Origin: a bacterium
GTDB lineage: Bacteria; Armatimonadota; Zipacnadia; Zipacnadales; Zipacnadaceae
Assembly (NCBI GenBank): GCA_030603495.1
Contig: JAUVXR010000003.1
Coordinates: forward strand, 62,001 to 126,000
Direction: 5' to 3'
DNA length: 64,000 nucleotides
Shown piece after piece: positions 52,131-63,059 of this stretch. The notes below the pieces were generated by a model. That model searched no databases. It saw only the letters and a list, made by a program, of their open reading frames with translations, and was not told where the DNA came from. The stretch's first letter is position 1. Every line of letters starts with the position of its first letter. The translations under genes were made by a program, and so were the position numbers.

Positions 52131-52757
52131 CTAAGCGCTGAGCAATTGGCTTAGTCTATCCCACGCTTTGCGGATGCCCTCAGTTACTGGCCCATCTCGG
52201 TACTCGACCAGCGGCATCTGCTCGGCCATTGCTTCAGTGACCGACTCGTCATATGGCAATTCTGCGACTAATTCCAGGCCGTTTTGCGCGCAATAGTCAC
52301 GGATCTGCTGTGTGTTTGTAGCGTTGATGTCAGCCTTGTTGATCATTACCGTAACAGTAGTCTAAAACTGCTTGCAGAGCTGGACAATCCGTTCCATGTC
52401 GTGAATTCCGGAGAGAGTCGGCTCGGTGACGACCAGCGCCAGATCGGTATCCGTGATGGCCGCGACGGCGGTGCAACCAATGCCCGGAGCGCCGTCAATC
52501 AGCACCAGAGGAATTCCCCCCTCGATCGCTGCATCCTCGGCTTTCTGGCGTACCATCGTGACCAGTCGCACCGTCTCTTTCGTATCTCAATTGCGTCCGG
52601 CAAACGGGCGCGTATCCGCGTGAGTTCGTCTTCGTCCTGGGCGAAGCTGAAGCCACCGACGGTCATAGCCACCGGATGGGTATGGCGTCCCGCCACCGCC
52701 ACGCACAGATCATAAGAGAGTGCATTGGGCGGGGATTCGGCAACGACCGCCGGATCT
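52131..52757 (-). pseudogene. MinD/CooC-type P-loop ATPase, disrupted
   Basis: Three pieces in order on the minus strand match a MinD-superfamily ATPase of the ferredoxin-associated kind. Piece 1 (about 52757-52590) reads AVVAESPPNALSYDL...GGFSFAQDEDEL. Piece 2, after a frameshift near 52590, reads ETVRLVTMVRQKAED, LVLIDGAPGIGC and EPTLSGIHDMERIVQLC. An in-frame TAG (52362-52364) then interrupts it. Piece 3 continues in the same frame as TVTVMINKADIN and ELPYDESVTEAMAEQMP to a stop at 52131. The Walker A N-terminus is missing. The next gene upstream, the nuclease-STAND gene, ends inside piece 1. Confidence 0.8.
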
Positions 52758-55517
52758 CTCTATCAACTCTGCAAATTCTAGCCAATTGGCCAGGATATTG
52801 GCCAAGCTTGCAGTGGTTGTTGGATGCAGTTCCTTGCCTTTTCTCGTGTTGATTTCCGACACCACTTGGCGAGCTGAGACCCACTGAGGCTCAGCAGTCG
52901 CTACTGTTTCGTAGAAATAAGCGACCACTGGGACATCCAGAATCCGCTTCCGGACAATTGCCCTCTGGTTGTTGACCTCGCTATCTGCGAACAGCTCTCC
53001 ATCCGCAGTCAGACGCCGACGACCATCCACGAGTCTCTCACACAATCCCATTAGGCGTGCATCGACCAATGATTTCTCAACCATCGTCTCCGATCGGCTA
53101 ATACTCACAGCAATCTGCTCCTTGCTCATGGGTCCCTTATTGCGTAGTTGCTTGATCAGTCGGCGCGTACCACTGATGTAGCCCTCAGGCTGTTGCGCAC
53201 CGGATTGTGCACCGATCAAGTACCTAGCAATAGGCAGGCCGCGGAGTTGGATAGGTCCGTCACCGGTCGCGCCAACTGAGTTCAGCCAGGCTACCATTGT
53301 GCTCGCATATCTTTCCCACGTCCTTTGTTGGGCAGCGACCGCCGGGAATTCCCCTTGGAGTATTGCGATAACATCCCCTAGGGTCCGAAGTTGTGCTTCA
53401 TCCCAGAGTTCGAGTATTCGCTTAGTACAAGTATTCCGGACAAGTCGCTGTCTAATTGCTGCACTCAAGTCATCCTCGGTTGCAATGATGCCGATATCAG
53501 AAGGAAGCCAAACATCGTCTCCTGCGTAATCGACGACACCTATGGCCCGAAGGTCGCGCAGGTAGTTGGATAGAGAGCCTGGCGCCACGGCTAGGTCGGA
53601 CGCCAGTTGCTCTATTGAGGCCTTATCACTCCCCGCAGCCAGTCGCTCGATCGCCTTGAGCGCTCTCCGAGGTCGAGTGCGAAGCAAATACACTTCATCA
53701 ATCGGTAGACGGTCTGTGCGGAGGAACTCGGCGAAGATGTCGTGATATACGTTGTACACATCTCCTTCCCGCAATAACAGCCGCATGTCGACGAATTTGT
53801 TGAGGAGCTGACCGATGTCCCGTCCTGGGAACCGCTCCGCCAACGTGCGCGAATCCGCAGGCATCACAGAGGCTAACTTACGTAACGAATCCTTTTCATC
53901 CTCGTCCAAGCTTTGGATATCAGCCTCGAACAGATTGCGGAGGTCAAGTTGTCGTTCCACGAGTTCTCGCTGCCCAGCGCCGTCGGCGATCTGCTGGTTG
54001 ATGTGCCAACAGACCTTCTTGAGCAACCAGGGGTAGCCTCTGCTAAACTCGCGGACCTCCTGCTCTAAGGCGGTCATTAGTCCTGCGTTGATTCTGGCCT
54101 CGAGTGCTCGAAGCAATACATTGGTCTCATCTGGACCGAACTGCTTGACGGGCACTGATCGAGCCCTCTTCCGGAGTGCTTCGCGAACGAAGGCAATCTC
54201 TTCGTCTTGCCACCAGAAGTCTGTCTTCCAAGCAAAGCCGAGGACTAGATTCGCTTGGGACTCCTCGACCGCCAGCGCCATCTCCAGCGTGGCTTCCGCA
54301 AGTGACAAATCGTGCAGCACCGCCTCGAACTGGTCAAAGAACAGCACGGGGGTAATGCCGCACTCCCGCGCTCTTTCGCCTACGTCGTATAAACCCTCCG
54401 GAAGAGACAGGGTGCCACCAACCGACACGCCAGCGAAAGCCTCACCCGTCTGAGCATCCTCGTCAAGAGTCTCAATGAGCCGCAAGACGGAAGCTGTAAG
54501 AAACCCCCGACTCTGGCCAGACACACCGCTTACTGATATGCCACGAGCACCGTCTTGATGCGCCTCCTTCAACATCTTGAGGATCAAGGAACTCTTGCCG
54601 ATACCAGAGAGTCCGGTCACAATGCACAGACGCTCAGCACTTTCCCCGGAACGCACTTGCCTCACCAGAGAACGGAAAGCTTCCACTTCCTCATTGCGCC
54701 CTGCGAAGCAGTCTGGAGGAGCCGGAAACTTGTAGTCGAACCAGCCTTTTCCCGGGGTCACCACGTGCGCCCGGGCGGCGGTCGCCCGGTCAGGGGGCTG
54801 GGGGGCCATTGTCTCTGGAGGTTCATTGAGCATCGCCAATTCGGCGAGGTCTGAACTGTTCTCGCGTAACCCCCTAGAAATGGTGGCCAACAGGTCATCT
54901 TCAACGATAAGCTGACCAGTTGGAGCCAGGATGTAGAACCCAGAAGGGGTGCGCTCACCCTCGTCGAGGACCAATAGGGCCCAGTGTGCCCCTTTTTCGC
55001 CGTATAGGAGGCGCACCTCACCAACCTTGCCGGTCCCGCGTTCCTCCACCAGTGCTGTGACCGTCTCTGGCGAGTGCCAGTCTGCCTGTTCGCACAATGC
55101 TCGGATCAGATCTGCCTCTTCGCAAAGCCTAACACGCTTCGTAGCCTCATCGAGAAGTTCCGACCGGTAGTAATCCCAGGCCTTGCCACTGAACCCCGGA
55201 ATCGCAACAAAGAGGCCGTGTGCGCGCGGATCTCTGTCTGCCTGATTTAGTACGTCCATTGCCAGTTCCTTCAAGGGGCCTGGGGAGACTGCTTCGTGTT
55301 GACACTTGCATGAAACGATTAGCTCTGCTCGGGTCAGACCCGCTCGTCCCACCACGTCCAACTCGGTACCGGTACGTTCTACATTTAATTCAACGTCCGG
55401 GTAGCCTGAAGCCTTAAGGTATTCCGCGACCAACTGCTCGAGCAAATGGCCCTTGGCGTTGTCGCGCGCCTTCTTACTCTTGCCCCGGGGAAGGAACTCA
55501 ATCCGCGCTGCTTCCAT
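52710..55517 (-). CDS. PD-(D/E)xK nuclease fused to a STAND-like NTPase, candidate defence protein
   Basis: 935 residues from the ATG at 55517 (GGAGGG before it). The N-terminal 150 residues look like an Mrr-type restriction endonuclease: ERTGTELDVVGR (Glu52, Asp54) and LIVSCKCQ (Lys71). A middle region (160-250) is unknown. The NTPase has Walker A TGLSGIGKSS (Lys308, Ser309) and Walker B VLFFDQFEAV (Asp395, Glu398). Winged-helix-like helical repeats follow to the end. This effector-NTPase-sensor order resembles Avs-type STAND defence proteins, although it is shorter. It is acquired relative to its surroundings: the flanking operon genes are broken at its edges. Confidence 0.75.
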   Translation of the reverse strand: MEAARIEFLPRGKSKKARDNAKGHLLEQLVAEYLKASGYPDVELNVERTGTELDVVGRAGLTRAELIVSCKCQHEAVSPGPLKELAMDVLNQADRDPRAHGLFVAIPGFSGKAWDYYRSELLDEATKRVRLCEEADLIRALCEQADWHSPETVTALVEERGTGKVGEVRLLYGEKGAHWALLVLDEGERTPSGFYILAPTGQLIVEDDLLATISRGLRENSSDLAELAMLNEPPETMAPQPPDRATAARAHVVTPGKGWFDYKFPAPPDCFAGRNEEVEAFRSLVRQVRSGESAERLCIVTGLSGIGKSSLILKMLKEAHQDGARGISVSGVSGQSRGFLTASVLRLIETLDEDAQTGEAFAGVSVGGTLSLPEGLYDVGERARECGITPVLFFDQFEAVLHDLSLAEATLEMALAVEESQANLVLGFAWKTDFWWQDEEIAFVREALRKRARSVPVKQFGPDETNVLLRALEARINAGLMTALEQEVREFSRGYPWLLKKVCWHINQQIADGAGQRELVERQLDLRNLFEADIQSLDEDEKDSLRKLASVMPADSRTLAERFPGRDIGQLLNKFVDMRLLLREGDVYNVYHDIFAEFLRTDRLPIDEVYLLRTRPRRALKAIERLAAGSDKASIEQLASDLAVAPGSLSNYLRDLRAIGVVDYAGDDVWLPSDIGIIATEDDLSAAIRQRLVRNTCTKRILELWDEAQLRTLGDVIAILQGEFPAVAAQQRTWERYASTMVAWLNSVGATGDGPIQLRGLPIARYLIGAQSGAQQPEGYISGTRRLIKQLRNKGPMSKEQIAVSISRSETMVEKSLVDARLMGLCERLVDGRRRLTADGELFADSEVNNQRAIVRKRILDVPVVAYFYETVATAEPQWVSARQVVSEINTRKGKELHPTTTASLANILANWLEFAELIERSGGRCRIPAQCTLL

Positions 55518-55860
55518 CGTATGCCCTCCGTTGCGCACGTTGTGAGCATCAGCTGGCGTGTAGCCAGCTAAAGAGGCCTATCTGCCACGCTTCTGCTACA
55601 CATGTTACCATTTCTCGCAGCATTGATCCAGCCTTTCCCAGCTCATTCGATGTGGCCGTTACCACGATGGTAGATGCCATCAACCCCAGCGAGATGCAGG
55701 GGCCTCAAGCTGAACTCGTGGTGGAAGCATTGGAGGTGTTGGCGCCAGCATTGCAGAGCCATCACAAGGACCCGATAAGGACGGCCGACAATCGTGCTCA
55801 ACAAGGCGGATGGGACTCGGTGAGTACAAGCATTGAGAAGCTATTGACGCAATGTCCTAG
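55518..55860. other. non-coding stretch upstream of the nuclease-STAND gene
   Basis: About 340 bases with no recognisable gene. A 70-codon plus-strand frame (55652-55864) has no SD and no familiar motif. The stretch separates the STAND gene start from the broken NifX 3' end and probably carries the STAND promoter, though no clear -35/-10 pair was found. Confidence 0.4.
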
Positions 55861-57822: not shown

Positions 57823-59895
57823 TCAGGCGAAATAGTCGCGGAGGGGCTTGTTACGTCGGGGCTGCCGCAATTTATTGAGGGCCTTCGCTTCAATCTGCCG
57901 GATGCGCTCGCGCGTTACCTCGAAGATATGCCCGACCTCCTCCAGCGTGCGCGGGTAGCCATCTTCCAGGCCGAACCGCAACTTCAGCACCTCGCGCTCG
58001 CGCTCGGTGAGCTGGCCCAGCAGCCTATCGAGCTGCTCGCGCAGAGCCATATTGGACGCCACATCCACCGGCGTCTCATCTTCCTCATCGGGTACGAAGT
58101 CGCCTAGATGGCTGTCGTTTTCTTCACCGACCGGTGCTTCCAGCGAAAGCGGCTTGGGCGCAATTCGCTTAATCTCGGCGACACGCTCCATCGGCATATC
58201 TATCTCGGCGGCTACGTCCTCCAGGGTAGGCTCGCGGCCAAGCTCCTGAAGCAGCTCGCGCGACGCCTTGACCAGGCGATTGATCGTCTCAACCATGTGG
58301 ACAGGCACGCGGATGATCCGGCTTTGATCGGCAATGGCACGGGAGATGGCCTGGCGTATCCACCAGGTAGCATAGGTGCTGAACTTGTAGCCTTTGCGGT
58401 AGTCGAATTTCTCAACCGCCCTCATCAGCCCAACATTGCCCTCTTGAATCAGGTCAAGAAAGCTCATCGCGGAGCGGCCAGTATACTTGCGCGCGATGCT
58501 GACCACCAAGCGCAGGTTCGCTTCGGTTAGCGACTGCACGGCATCTTCGTCTCTGACGCGCAGGCTCGCGCCATCAACACTCCCGGCACTGACTTGTCGG
58601 CTCAAGACGACCTCAACCGGTCTACTCAGTCCAACGTTCTGCTCCCCGTCCACAGGAAAGGCCGCTTGCACCGCCAGCGTGGCTGGATCGGCGGCCGTGG
58701 TGAAATCAATCTTGAATGGCTCCTGTAGCGGATACCCACTCGCCCCCATAATGCCCTTCTTACCCGCTTCCAGCGTCAGGGTGTAGATCATTTGTCTGGT
58801 TAACGGATCGGCGGGGATGAAGCGTACCTCGCGGCGTTCATCGTCGTAGTGGACCTCCCCGGCTACCGGATGGTTCATGGCATCATGCACTCGCACAGTC
58901 CGGGCCCCTACCGAACGCGGGACCAGGCGGCGGTCAAACGTGATAACCACGGGGCGAGCTACGTCGAAATCCGTGGCCCCATCTTCAGGATCAGTCTTCA
59001 CGACGCGCGGTGCCGCCTTGGCACTGGTTGTGCGAAAACTGAACTTATGATTCTTGGCCAGCCGCCGGCCCTCTTCTGCCGTGGCGACGCCTTCGGCCCT
59101 CGCGCGAACCGTCGCCGTGAACTTATTGCGATGCTTGAGCGACTTGGCTGGCCGGAAGCGCGCACGCCACGGCTGCATCTCGTCGAGGCTGACGGTGCCT
59201 GCTACTTCGCGGCCCTTGCCGTCCACTACTGTTACGACACCGGCGCGGACCGAATCGGCCGCCAGCACATCGCTGAACTCGATGACAATGTCGCGATCAA
59301 CTTCAACATCCCGTTTCCCGTGCTCGGGCAGGCTGCCGGTGACAGTTAAAGGCGCACTACCGTTGGCGGTGCGGAACGTCCAGAGGATGTCCCGGGCCAT
59401 CGGCTTAGCCGCGACGTCGCGTATGCCGTGCTCCCCGCCTCGCACGGCCACGGTATACTCGCGATCCGGGTCGCGCGCCTCCTCGGGCTCGAACCGCAGA
59501 CAATTGCGCAAGCGATCGTAGACCACCCGTCCGTTGCCCTTCTGGACGCGACGTGCTATTTCGACCTCCTCGCTGGGGCTGAGCAGAGGGACCTGACCGA
59601 TGCTGCGCAAGTACATCCGCACCGAGTCGTCTACCGGCACAGATTCGACGTCTTTTTCGTCCTCCAGATCGGCCTCGGCTTCCTCGGTGGCAGATTCTCC
59701 GTCGGAGCTGACATTTATGCCCGCCTTGTGCAGAATCCGGTATATATCCTCAATATCGGAGGTATCCAGGAATTCGCACTCCCCGAGCACTTCCTGGATA
59801 TCTTCGTAGGTTAGATAGCCCTGTTCCTGGCCCTTGCCAACAAGCTGCTGAACCTGTTTGAGCTCGCTGATCTCGACTGCCTCGCCCTCGGGCAA
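57823..59895 (-). CDS. rpoD: primary sigma factor RpoD with inserted Ig-like (Big_5) domains
   Basis: 690 residues from a TTG, six bases after dnaG. Region 1.1 is residues 10-62 ([13 protein letters not shown]), then an acidic linker. Region 1.2 is about 88-120 ([19 protein letters not shown]). Regions 2.1-2.4 begin at about 448 ([37 protein letters not shown]), with 3 and 4 following to [16 protein letters not shown]. All housekeeping residues are present. Residues 121-447 are not sigma sequence but Ig-like Big_5/SbsA repeats (listed separately). The insert sits where E. coli sigma70 has its non-conserved region. The frame is uninterrupted and starts and ends cleanly within the sigma core. 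Confidence 0.93.
58555..59535 (-). other. Ig-like (Big_5/SbsA-type) insert within rpoD
   Basis: Codons 121-447. A Big_5 repeat typically opens with 'P-x-DG', 'v-i-F' and closes with 'F-P...L....YT-t', 'G......W-F-T'. Residues 122-176 are the second half only ([23 protein letters not shown]). Residues 183-290 are a full repeat ([20 protein letters not shown] to HKFSFRTT). Residues 295-400 are a second full repeat ([20 protein letters not shown] to FKIDFTT). Residues 405-447 are the first half only ([19 protein letters not shown] to SLRVRD). Composition is basic, unlike secreted Ig domains, which fits a place on RNA polymerase near DNA. Confidence 0.85.
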
Positions 59896-59901
59896 CTACC
59901 T

Positions 59902-61917
59902 TCAACTCCTTTCGTCATTCTGCTCCGCGTTGTTCTGCTGCCCGGATAAGTCCTCCGGACTCTCTACCCGGTTCGTCCCCTGGATAGCTCCTGGACCTTC
60001 GAGAAAATCAAACTGGCCTTTGCCATGGAATCTAGCCGCCAGAGCAACGTACCGCTGATAGTCCGGATGATCGTGTGTGAATTCGTCGGACTTCATCAAT
60101 TCAGCGATGCGCTGTTGTAACTTCTGGAAGTCCTCGACGCTATTCTCCTCAGTGACGAGGGGGCTTTCTGCGGATTGCAGCTCGTATTCCTCGCGTAGGC
60201 CTGTAACCCGCCGGTGCTTGCGCAGCTTTCGAGCACTGGCCTCAAGGAGCTCGTTCGTCAGATCATCAGGTGGCTCCGCAAGTAAGAGTTCCACGGCCCG
60301 ACGGTAAGTACCTTCCTGCGCTGAGAGCTCATCGGGCACGCGCTGCGGCTCGTACTCACCATTCACCTGAAGCTGCGCCCCAATCGCTCGGGCAATAGCC
60401 TGGTGCTCAGGCGTCAGGAAATCATCCGGACACAATACCGCGAATACCCTTTCGGCAAAGTCTCTGCTCTCTAAAGCCGCGCACAACAACTCTCGTTCCA
60501 GCCTCTCTAATATCGCGCCGCGGTATTCGACGTCCTGAACGATAGTCTCGGTGACAAAGCTGCGGTCCCGCCGGCCACTGCCCGCCGTCTTAGCCCGCCG
60601 GCGCTGGCCTTTGCTGGTGCGCCGCTGCATCTCCATGCGCAGGGCTGCCTGCATGCCTCCTACCCGCTCCGGCTGCCCCTGAGCCCAGCGGTCGGCTGCC
60701 CGCACCACGAACTCCTCGCGGCGGGTCCGATCTGGTATGTGCCGCAGTACATCTACCGCCTCCCGTGCTGCTCGCGCCAGTCCCTCGGAGCCACCGTCTC
60801 GATGACCGCCAAAGACCATCTCCAGGCGATACTCAACCAGGTCCACGGCCTGCTGGGCAAGCTGCTGAAACTGCTCGACGCCGTGTGCACGGATGGACTG
60901 ATCCGGATCAATGCCCTGGGGCAAGAGCATTACCCGGGCCTCGAGTGTGCTGCCCTCGAACAAGTCAATGTTGCGCAGCGCCGCCGCCATCCCCGCCGCA
61001 TCCGCGTCGAAGCAGAGGATAACTCGCTCAACGTACCGCCGCAGTAGCAACAGATGGTCAGCGGTCATCGCCGTGCCCAATGTTGCCACTGCGTTCTTGA
61101 GACCAGCTTGGTGCAGGGCCAAGACGTCCGTGTACCCTTCAACCACTATCGCAGACTTCGCCGCGACCAGCGCCTGCCGACCGTGGGCCAGCGCATACAG
61201 ATTGCGACTCTTGCTAAACAGCGGCGTGTCCGGCGAATTGAGGTACTTCGCCGATTCAGCCGGATCCATCGCCCGTCCCCCAAAGCCGATCACCGCCCCC
61301 GCCGCATCGCTAATCGGAAACATTATCCGGTTGCGAAAGACGTCGTAATCGCTGCCCCGTTCGCTGCGTTTGACCAGTCCGGCTTCTCGCATCAGTTGAG
61401 CTGCAAGCCCCTTGCTGGACAAGAACTTCAGCAGCTCGTCCCACGCCTCCACAGCGAAACCCAAGCGGAATCCTGTGATCGTTTCATCAGAGAAGCCACG
61501 TTTATACAAGTAATCGAGTGCGGCTTTGCCGCCGGTGCTGCGCAGATTGTCCTCAAAGTGGCACGTCGCCGACTCCACGGCGCGGCGCAGCAGCTTGCTG
61601 CGCTCAACCCGTGCCTGCTCCCCCGGTTCAATCCGCCAAGTCAAGCCACAGCGTTCGGCGAGCCGCTCACCAGCTTCCGAGAAGCTAATCCCTTCGATCT
61701 GTTGCAGGAACGAGAACAAGTCTCCGCCCGCCCCACAGCCGAAGCAGTGCCACAGGCCCGCCGCTGGATCAACGGACAACGATGGAGTCTTCTCCTGATG
61801 GAAAGGACACAGTGCCTTGAACCGCCGCCCGGCTCGCCTCACAGGAATGTACTGGGAGATAAGCTCGACGATGTCAATCCGTCGCTTGATTTCTTCTTTG
61901 GTGTCTTCGATAGGCAT
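59902..61917 (-). CDS. dnaG: DNA primase DnaG
   Basis: 671 residues. The zinc finger is C37-PF-H40...C58-FG-C61. The catalytic core has YLNSPDTPLFSKS, the TOPRIM motif VVEGYTDVLALHQAG and ILCFDADAAG. The C-terminal third (about 440-671) holds the helicase-binding domain and a Gln/Glu-rich tail. It primes lagging-strand synthesis with DnaB. It is coupled to rpoD (six bases apart), the conserved core of the macromolecular synthesis operon. rpsU is absent. Confidence 0.96.
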   Translation of the reverse strand: MPIEDTKEEIKRRIDIVELISQYIPVRRAGRRFKALCPFHQEKTPSLSVDPAAGLWHCFGCGAGGDLFSFLQQIEGISFSEAGERLAERCGLTWRIEPGEQARVERSKLLRRAVESATCHFEDNLRSTGGKAALDYLYKRGFSDETITGFRLGFAVEAWDELLKFLSSKGLAAQLMREAGLVKRSERGSDYDVFRNRIMFPISDAAGAVIGFGGRAMDPAESAKYLNSPDTPLFSKSRNLYALAHGRQALVAAKSAIVVEGYTDVLALHQAGLKNAVATLGTAMTADHLLLLRRYVERVILCFDADAAGMAAALRNIDLFEGSTLEARVMLLPQGIDPDQSIRAHGVEQFQQLAQQAVDLVEYRLEMVFGGHRDGGSEGLARAAREAVDVLRHIPDRTRREEFVVRAADRWAQGQPERVGGMQAALRMEMQRRTSKGQRRRAKTAGSGRRDRSFVTETIVQDVEYRGAILERLERELLCAALESRDFAERVFAVLCPDDFLTPEHQAIARAIGAQLQVNGEYEPQRVPDELSAQEGTYRRAVELLLAEPPDDLTNELLEASARKLRKHRRVTGLREEYELQSAESPLVTEENSVEDFQKLQQRIAELMKSDEFTHDHPDYQRYVALAARFHGKGQFDFLEGPGAIQGTNRVESPEDLSGQQNNAEQNDERS

Positions 61918-62189: not shown

Positions 62190-63059
62190 TCAGTCCCAGA
62201 TATGCATCCTTACAATCCGGAAATCGTGTAGGGTGAAGTCAATATTGTTGCCGTTCTCCGTATAGCGCATAATACAATCCCGGCTGAAAGTCTTGGAACT
62301 ACTCTGGAAGCTGACTGTGGCTCCTGCAACGCTGCCCGCCAGTCCGCTGGCCTGGTAGGTGATCGTGTCATCGGGCCAGCCATAGCGCTGGAGCACGCGT
62401 GCGTAATGGTCGCCCATCTTGAGGTATTTGTGCGGCTCCCACATCGCACTGCGCGCATAACTGCATTCATCGGCGGCAACTGCAATGGCCTGAACATAGC
62501 CGTCCAAGTCCAGCAGGAATCCCAGCGTCACTCCCCCGCGCTGGTAGAGCCACATCATCTCACCAGGCGCGGTGTCAATGTATATCGGCAAGGCCCAATT
62601 GGGCACCACACCGGCAGGTGCGCCTACCGCCGCCGCGCCCGGAGCGCCCATTTCCCCTGGCGCTCCGGGGAATGCGCCCGGCCCCATCCTCCTCATCTCC
62701 TCCTCCATCAACAACGGGTCCATCATCATCTCGGCCACCCCACCAACTACTCCAGCTATACCTGCCTCCTCTGGTGTTGCACCTGCAAAACCAGCTAGTG
62801 CTCCCGCCCCACGCGCGGCAGCCATGGCGCGGTCCATTGTACCCAGACCAGGTGCCGCGACGGGAAAGGCCGGCCCTGCTGGACCCGTCACTATTCCGTC
62901 CGGCGGGCCATAGAGTTCCAGAAGCGCAACGGCATGCTCATTCAACCGAACGCCCGCGAGCTGCCGCTCCTTGGCGTACGCGCTTCCCCCAGTCAGAAGA
63001 ACTACGCTAATAAGTGCCACTGCTACCAGGATTGCTCGGCTATAGCTCGCCCGTGTCAT
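62190..63059 (-). CDS. secreted protein of unknown function with two similar ends
   Basis: 289 residues with a signal peptide (residues 8-29, cleavage after AYA). The N-terminal unit VRLNEHAVALLELYGPPDGIV and the C-terminal unit LKMGDHYARVLQRYGWPDDTI look like the same motif. Between them (residues 60-155) lies a Gly/Ala/Pro/Met-rich low-complexity stretch. The C-terminal 130 residues (from IYIDTAPGEMMWLY) are beta-rich with two Cys. I do not recognise a family; the paired 'LYG-P' units recall SmpA/BamE-like folds only weakly. Confidence 0.7.
   Translation of the reverse strand: MTRASYSRAILVAVALISVVLLTGGSAYAKERQLAGVRLNEHAVALLELYGPPDGIVTGPAGPAFPVAAPGLGTMDRAMAAARGAGALAGFAGATPEEAGIAGVVGGVAEMMMDPLLMEEEMRRMGPGAFPGAPGEMGAPGAAAVGAPAGVVPNWALPIYIDTAPGEMMWLYQRGGVTLGFLLDLDGYVQAIAVAADECSYARSAMWEPHKYLKMGDHYARVLQRYGWPDDTITYQASGLAGSVAGATVSFQSSSKTFSRDCIMRYTENGNNIDFTLHDFRIVRMHIWD

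Follow-up and report, generated by a model that had tools for sequence, protein, structure and literature searches.

The predicted primary sigma factor of the uncultured bacterial class Zipacnadia (Armatimonadota) carries an insert of immunoglobulin (Ig)-type Big_5 sequence between regions 1.2 and 2.1, the position of the non-conserved region (NCR). This insert characterizes the class as a whole and is no isolated oddity, being present in every class member with a detectable rpoD. By its sequence, the insert reads as a circularly permuted three-unit array in which the C-terminal half of a domain, two complete units (A and B) and the N-terminal half of a domain follow one another. The gene studied lies in a window of 64,000 nucleotides, by which the whole stretch of DNA analysed is meant, and its features are listed in Table 1.

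Table 1. Features of rpoD, its Ig insert and the adjoining dnaG in the window.
Feature	Residues	Position	Strand	Basis and remarks
dnaG primase		59902..61917	(-)	Pfam DNAG_N, Zn_ribbon_DnaG, Toprim; directly upstream of rpoD
rpoD, predicted primary sigma factor	690 aa	57823..59895	(-)	TTG start; TIGR02393 RpoD_Cterm, 366.1 bits vs. cut-off of 354
Sigma region 1.1	13-82	59650..59859	(-)	Pfam PF03979 (Sigma70_r1_1)
Sigma region 1.2	90-121	59533..59628	(-)	Pfam PF00140 (Sigma70_r1_2)
Ig insert between regions 1.2 and 2.1	122-448 (327 aa)	58552..59532	(-)	Pfam, unit profile, SigA alignment; recurs in 43/43 class members with detectable rpoD
C-terminal half of Big_5 domain	122-178	59362..59532	(-)	Unit profile (model positions ~54-111); AF2 strands 122-127, 132-137, 146-151, 170-176
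Complete Big_5 unit A	179-291	59023..59361	(-)	Unit profile, AF2; CopC-like Ig fold, Z 14.3
Complete Big_5 unit B	292-402	58690..59022	(-)	Pfam, unit profile, AF2, structural match
N-terminal half of Big_5 domain	403-448	58552..58689	(-)	Unit profile (model positions ~3-50); AF2 strands 409-413, 418-421, 427-431, 445-448; control fold without C-terminal half
Sigma region 2	457-526	58318..58527	(-)	Pfam PF04542
Sigma region 3	536-611	58063..58290	(-)	Pfam PF04539
Sigma region 4	625-678	57862..58023	(-)	Pfam PF04545

Identity of the Sigma Factor and Boundaries of the Insert

Regions 1.1, 1.2, 2, 3 and 4 of the protein each scored above their own Pfam cut-off, which bears out the complete RpoD that an earlier note on this DNA had described, and the C-terminal equivalog model TIGR02393 was passed as well (Table 1), while full-length lineage-specific RpoD models were missed, such as NF006666 (478 vs. 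572), as expected given an insert of 327 amino acids. The gene encodes the sole RpoD and the sole full sigma match of its genome, where the other region 3 matches are two, in ORFs of 246 and 274 amino acids, and its product is assigned by sequence to the group 1 (housekeeping) sigma70 factors. The adjoining dnaG, also described earlier, immediately precedes rpoD on the minus strand; among 96 loci tested, outgroups included, 87 had a same-strand dnaG match next to rpoD, most exceptions being short or at contig borders. Elsewhere in the window, a protein of 942 amino acids (52710-55538, minus strand) combines an Mrr-type endonuclease domain, an AAA/STAND NTPase domain and an AAA-associated C-terminal domain and resembles proteins of the defence type, and one of 289 amino acids (62190-63059, minus strand) exhibits an apparent signal sequence and a Gly/Ala/Pro-rich middle, without a Pfam match.

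Big_5 domains are otherwise typical of secreted proteins. In the profile search, the insert matched Pfam Big_5 (PF13205) in four stretches between regions 1.2 and 2, far above the curated cut-off (E 5.3e-39; 133.6 bits vs. 23.6), and this score, together with the Ig-like fold seen in the AF2 model and in structural matches, places it in the Big_5 family; the exported-protein setting usual for Big_5 was not found, as the array is inside RpoD, and that setting lies outside the family definition. When the protein was aligned to solved SigA structures, the residues flanking the insert (121 and 449) fell together on a single residue of sigma (D150 in 7l7b_F, D128 in 8x6f_E), so that the insert is a pure addition with no loss of sigma residues. 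Query residue 451 aligned to residue 374 of E. coli sigma70, near which region 2.1 begins, and the insert sits between regions 1.2 and 2.1, at the NCR position; its Big_5 sequence and beta strands set it apart from a homologue of the helical E. coli-type NCR. The Pfam order and the SigA alignment thus agree with the earlier proposal of an Ig module in place of the NCR of a genuine housekeeping sigma factor, and the proposed length of about 327 residues and Big_5 identity were retained, with the boundaries shifted by one residue from 121-447 to 122-448.

Domain Organization of the Permuted Array

The unit profile, which was built from two full units and run on 21 full-length or near full-length proteins, gave the order half, full, full, half in all 21, so what had been taken for inserted Ig domains is indeed an Ig module, made up not of three ordinary domains but of a half, two full units and another half. 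The two halves were nearly complementary in the same 21 of 21 proteins, the start of the first following the end of the last by 1-5 model positions, and when joined in natural order they scored 48-72 bits as a single domain. Residues 403-448 and 122-178 probably fold together as one composite Ig, a pairing supported by the profile, the model and a natural variant (see below). The cut in this domain corresponds to a short hairpin loop that units A (strands 221-224/233-237) and B (334-337/346-351) show in the AF2 model, and the sigma body would accordingly replace the hairpin loop of the composite Ig, which would bring both insert junctions together; such a split composite domain would be a clear case of a repeat array entering a loop while still folding.

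The insert was modelled with a pLDDT of ~89-95 and 4 + 8 + 8 + 4 strands, and the region 1.2 helix (107-118) continues into strand 122-127, as strand 445-448 does into the region 2.1 helix (450-472); the full-length AF2 model was good for the insert and poor for the sigma core, for which the alignment was shallow. In an AF2 control minus the C-terminal half, the N-terminal half dropped two of its four strands (418-421 and 445-448) at a pLDDT of 82-87, a modest fall for a half that then lies at the chain end, where confidence is often lower, and with this caution the weakening supports the composite domain. The best structural matches to units A and B were CopC proteins (Z 13-14), in structural searches whose listed matches covered the sigma chains or the Ig units. 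The insert shares its domain family or fold with the Big_5 arrays of secreted proteins, CopC, LdtMt2 and SbsC, and differs from the secreted Big_5 arrays in being permuted, presumably cytoplasmic and within an essential transcription factor.

Distribution and Origin

The same architecture, for which the earlier note had advised a look at related genomes, was present in all 43 genomes (10 families) in which an rpoD was detected, out of the 46 Zipacnadia genomes searched; the 43 include G003, G022 and G025, whose rpoD is only partly covered (contig ends or partial match), and the three genomes without an rpoD match are MAGs that are 80-85% complete. An uninterrupted rpoD, which in close relatives would have spoken against the earlier reading, was found in none of these 43, and among the 291 genomes of the phylum every match listed from outside the class covered the sigma parts alone. 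The contig scan with the insert alignment rested on one C-terminal junction pattern, and an independent Ig insertion with another junction may occur in other phyla. The contig titles name Candidatus Zipacnadia or WS1, Armatimonadota, and come from independent projects. That the insert arose by misassembly, or that it is excised from the product, for instance as an intein, has a negligible probability: the initial oddity was all that spoke for it, and misassembly is ruled out by identical junctions recurring across independent MAGs of many projects, while no intein (self-splicing Hint) domain was among the Pfam matches of the 690-aa ORF and the insert is under purifying selection.

Lineage-specific insertions at the NCR site are already known (PMC4598750, PMC12000874), and the class Zipacnadia was described in PMC10290634, where sigma factors are unmentioned. 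A literature search, with subscription papers and preprints outside its scope, found no description of Ig domains in a sigma factor, in agreement with the earlier note, which knew of no described sigma factor of such architecture; within the literature searched, insertions of this kind are on record, and the Ig content, the arrangement with a split composite and the fixation throughout the class are undescribed. Few bacterial proteins are as conserved and as essential as the primary sigma factor, and the fixation in it, across a class, of a domain type otherwise usual in secreted proteins shows the extent to which the NCR is replaceable.

Outside RpoD, no Big_5 match was found in the source genome (93.5% complete), so no current extracellular source is apparent there; secreted multi-Big_5 proteins are encoded by other class members. 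In the unit tree, A, B and the composite formed separate lineages among the nine RpoDs sampled, with the RpoD composites clustering together, which suggests that the three lineages are older than the class radiation. A donor could not be named from this tree, in which most of the secreted units sampled stood apart and one lay near unit A on a long branch. The simplest account would be that the ancestor of the class gained, in one in-frame event, a piece of a Big_5 array that was a whole number of units long and out of phase with the domain borders.

Sequence Conservation and Selection

The length of the insert was 326 amino acids in 25 of 38 aligned proteins, with a range of 324-341, and its dN/dS was ~0.13-0.28, compared with ~0.01-0.06 in regions 2-4 (seven pairs, several with near-saturated dS), showing that the insert is selected as a protein, yet is much less constrained than the sigma core; compared by identity, regions 2-4 were nearly unchanged. 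The conserved positions of the aligned inserts look mostly like Ig core and define no clear binding surface. An alternative, though an unlikely one, is that the cell tolerates the insert as a passenger, which entered once and in frame in the class ancestor, was rendered harmless by a self-closing composite Ig and was never cleanly removed: the Ig-core character of the conserved positions would agree with it, as would entry at a permissive loop, with both junctions at points that leave the fold closed, and a site that varies freely among bacteria, most Armatimonadota having no insert and families f37 and f38 a seemingly alpha-helical one, whereas purifying selection and near-constant length across the depth of the class, even in a 2.7-Mb genome, and zero reversions among 43 genomes argue against it.

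The closeness of units A and B to CopC proteins might point to a sensor or regulated part that responds, for example, to metal or redox state; this is very improbable, as no metal-site set of His, Cys or Met was found among the conserved insert positions, the cysteine count of the insert varies from 1 to 7, and CopC is simply a close Ig fold.

Possible Role at the Holoenzyme

Ig domains are common interaction modules, and the E. coli sigma70 NCR is alpha-helical with an acidic loop; the Zipacnadia insert likewise joins a group 1 sigma factor after region 1.2 and before region 2.1, at the same point, and is of similar size (245 amino acids in E. coli vs. 327); it is unlike that NCR in that its three units are Ig beta sandwiches from an unrelated family. 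In E. coli, the NCR (residues 128-372, with the acidic loop) touches the beta' clamp-toe, shifts upon ejection of region 1.1 and affects promoter escape (PMC7822876), and one of its residues comes near promoter DNA during opening (PMC8894471). In other bacteria the NCR is bound by lineage-specific factors, RbpA using the mycobacterial sigma NCR (PMC12000874) and GrgA the chlamydial sigma66 NCR (PMC4552016); these resemble the Zipacnadia case in that the NCR is an attachment place of clade-specific regulation, and differ from it in that their inserts are non-Ig and their partner is known.

Given the contacts and the promoter-escape effect of the E. coli NCR and the factor-bound NCRs of mycobacteria and chlamydia, we favour, with about even confidence, the interpretation that the Ig insert is a clade-specific NCR replacement with an NCR-like role through contact with the holoenzyme, and rank it ahead of docking of a factor, which in turn precedes the tolerated passenger. 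With its halves folded together, the composite Ig would anchor the array at one point and hold the two junctions next to each other, and units A and B may project from sigma domain 2 as an arm or, if the ring closes, as a closed ring. If the role is NCR-like, the insert would operate in the cytoplasm, placed between promoter DNA and the beta' clamp at the surface of the holoenzyme, and its contacts there could adjust the loading of DNA, the stability of the open complex or promoter escape. With regions 2-4 nearly unchanged, ordinary recognition of the core promoter is expected.

It is possible but doubtful that the Ig module serves mainly for the docking of a separate, clade-specific transcription factor. 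Factor-bound NCRs elsewhere, the general interaction role of Ig domains and the combination of class-wide retention with fast surface change, as of a co-evolving partner, would fit it; on the other hand, the aligned inserts define no conserved surface patch, and CarD-type proteins do not track the insert, neither loss nor gain of CarD correlating with it in 20 genomes. A bolder reading, which we put forward tentatively, is that sigma here has a transcription factor built in: the insert, as an Ig ring that the split domain closes, would touch upstream DNA or the RNA polymerase clamp. If true, the built-in ring would give a whole class a distinct initiation step, and insertion of an exact repeat multiple out of phase would be a general route for tandem-repeat proteins into essential proteins without breakage.

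In the rpoC loci (L116-L133), a stretch of 124-183 amino acids was observed at the beta' clamp-toe in Armatimonadota, which is strongly acidic in most Zipacnadia sampled, with a long acidic tract in eight genomes, and also in the outgroup G050. The net charge of the insert ranged from -28 to +5, and a charge match of the insert to this tract is unsupported, as the insert charge is not conserved; with one outgroup sharing the tract and the insert charge varying, the tract as a partner of the insert is only a lead.

Natural Variants and Other Sigma Factor Oddities

The deep-branching member G045 encodes a second sigma70-like protein (L169, minus strand; G045:C361:52769-53890, 504-aa ORF), in which the insert, at the same site as in RpoD, consists of the C-terminal half, 28 amino acids and the N-terminal half, without units A and B. 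Both halves are kept though A and B are absent, as is expected if the halves form one domain. Its composite unit grouped with unit B in the unit tree, apart from the RpoD composites, and a search of the phylum revealed no further paralog built in this way; this single case may go back to an early state with one Ig or to a rearrangement. Families f37 and f38 (L085-L090, L097-L099) exhibit another RpoD insert of ~230 amino acids at exactly the same point, without Big_5 character, which appears alpha-helical on inspection of the sequence and looks independent of the Ig insert, and this different insert in the same phylum indicates that the site accepts domains repeatedly. No insert, a helical insert, an Ig insert and a single permuted Ig thus occur within one phylum, which offers a natural comparison for NCR function.

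One MAG (G002:C262, C11 and C35; L007, L112, also L061 and L063) contains rpoD three times, as copies or fragments that each include the Ig insert, and the two extra ones, with 62-63% identity to the query, are probably from mixed strains, not paralogs. Moreover, three ORFs combine sigma pieces with other domains. An esterase/hydrolase-like ORF of 791 amino acids with AXE1/DLH matches (L135:3030-5402, minus strand, G016:C96) has an embedded Sigma70_r2 (E 3.7e-18) and may be chimeric or owe this stretch to a quirk of assembly or gene conversion; an apparent 2-oxoacid dehydrogenase E1 alpha+beta fusion of 804 amino acids (L168:1115-3526, plus strand, G040:C23), with the enzyme part recognized by eye, has a sigma region 2 piece between its halves; and a chimeric ORF of 659 amino acids (L134:1247-3223, plus strand, G041:C35) comprises an ECF-type sigma, a bifunctional nuclease domain (BFN) and sigma70 regions 1.2, 2 and part of 3, with no Ig insert.
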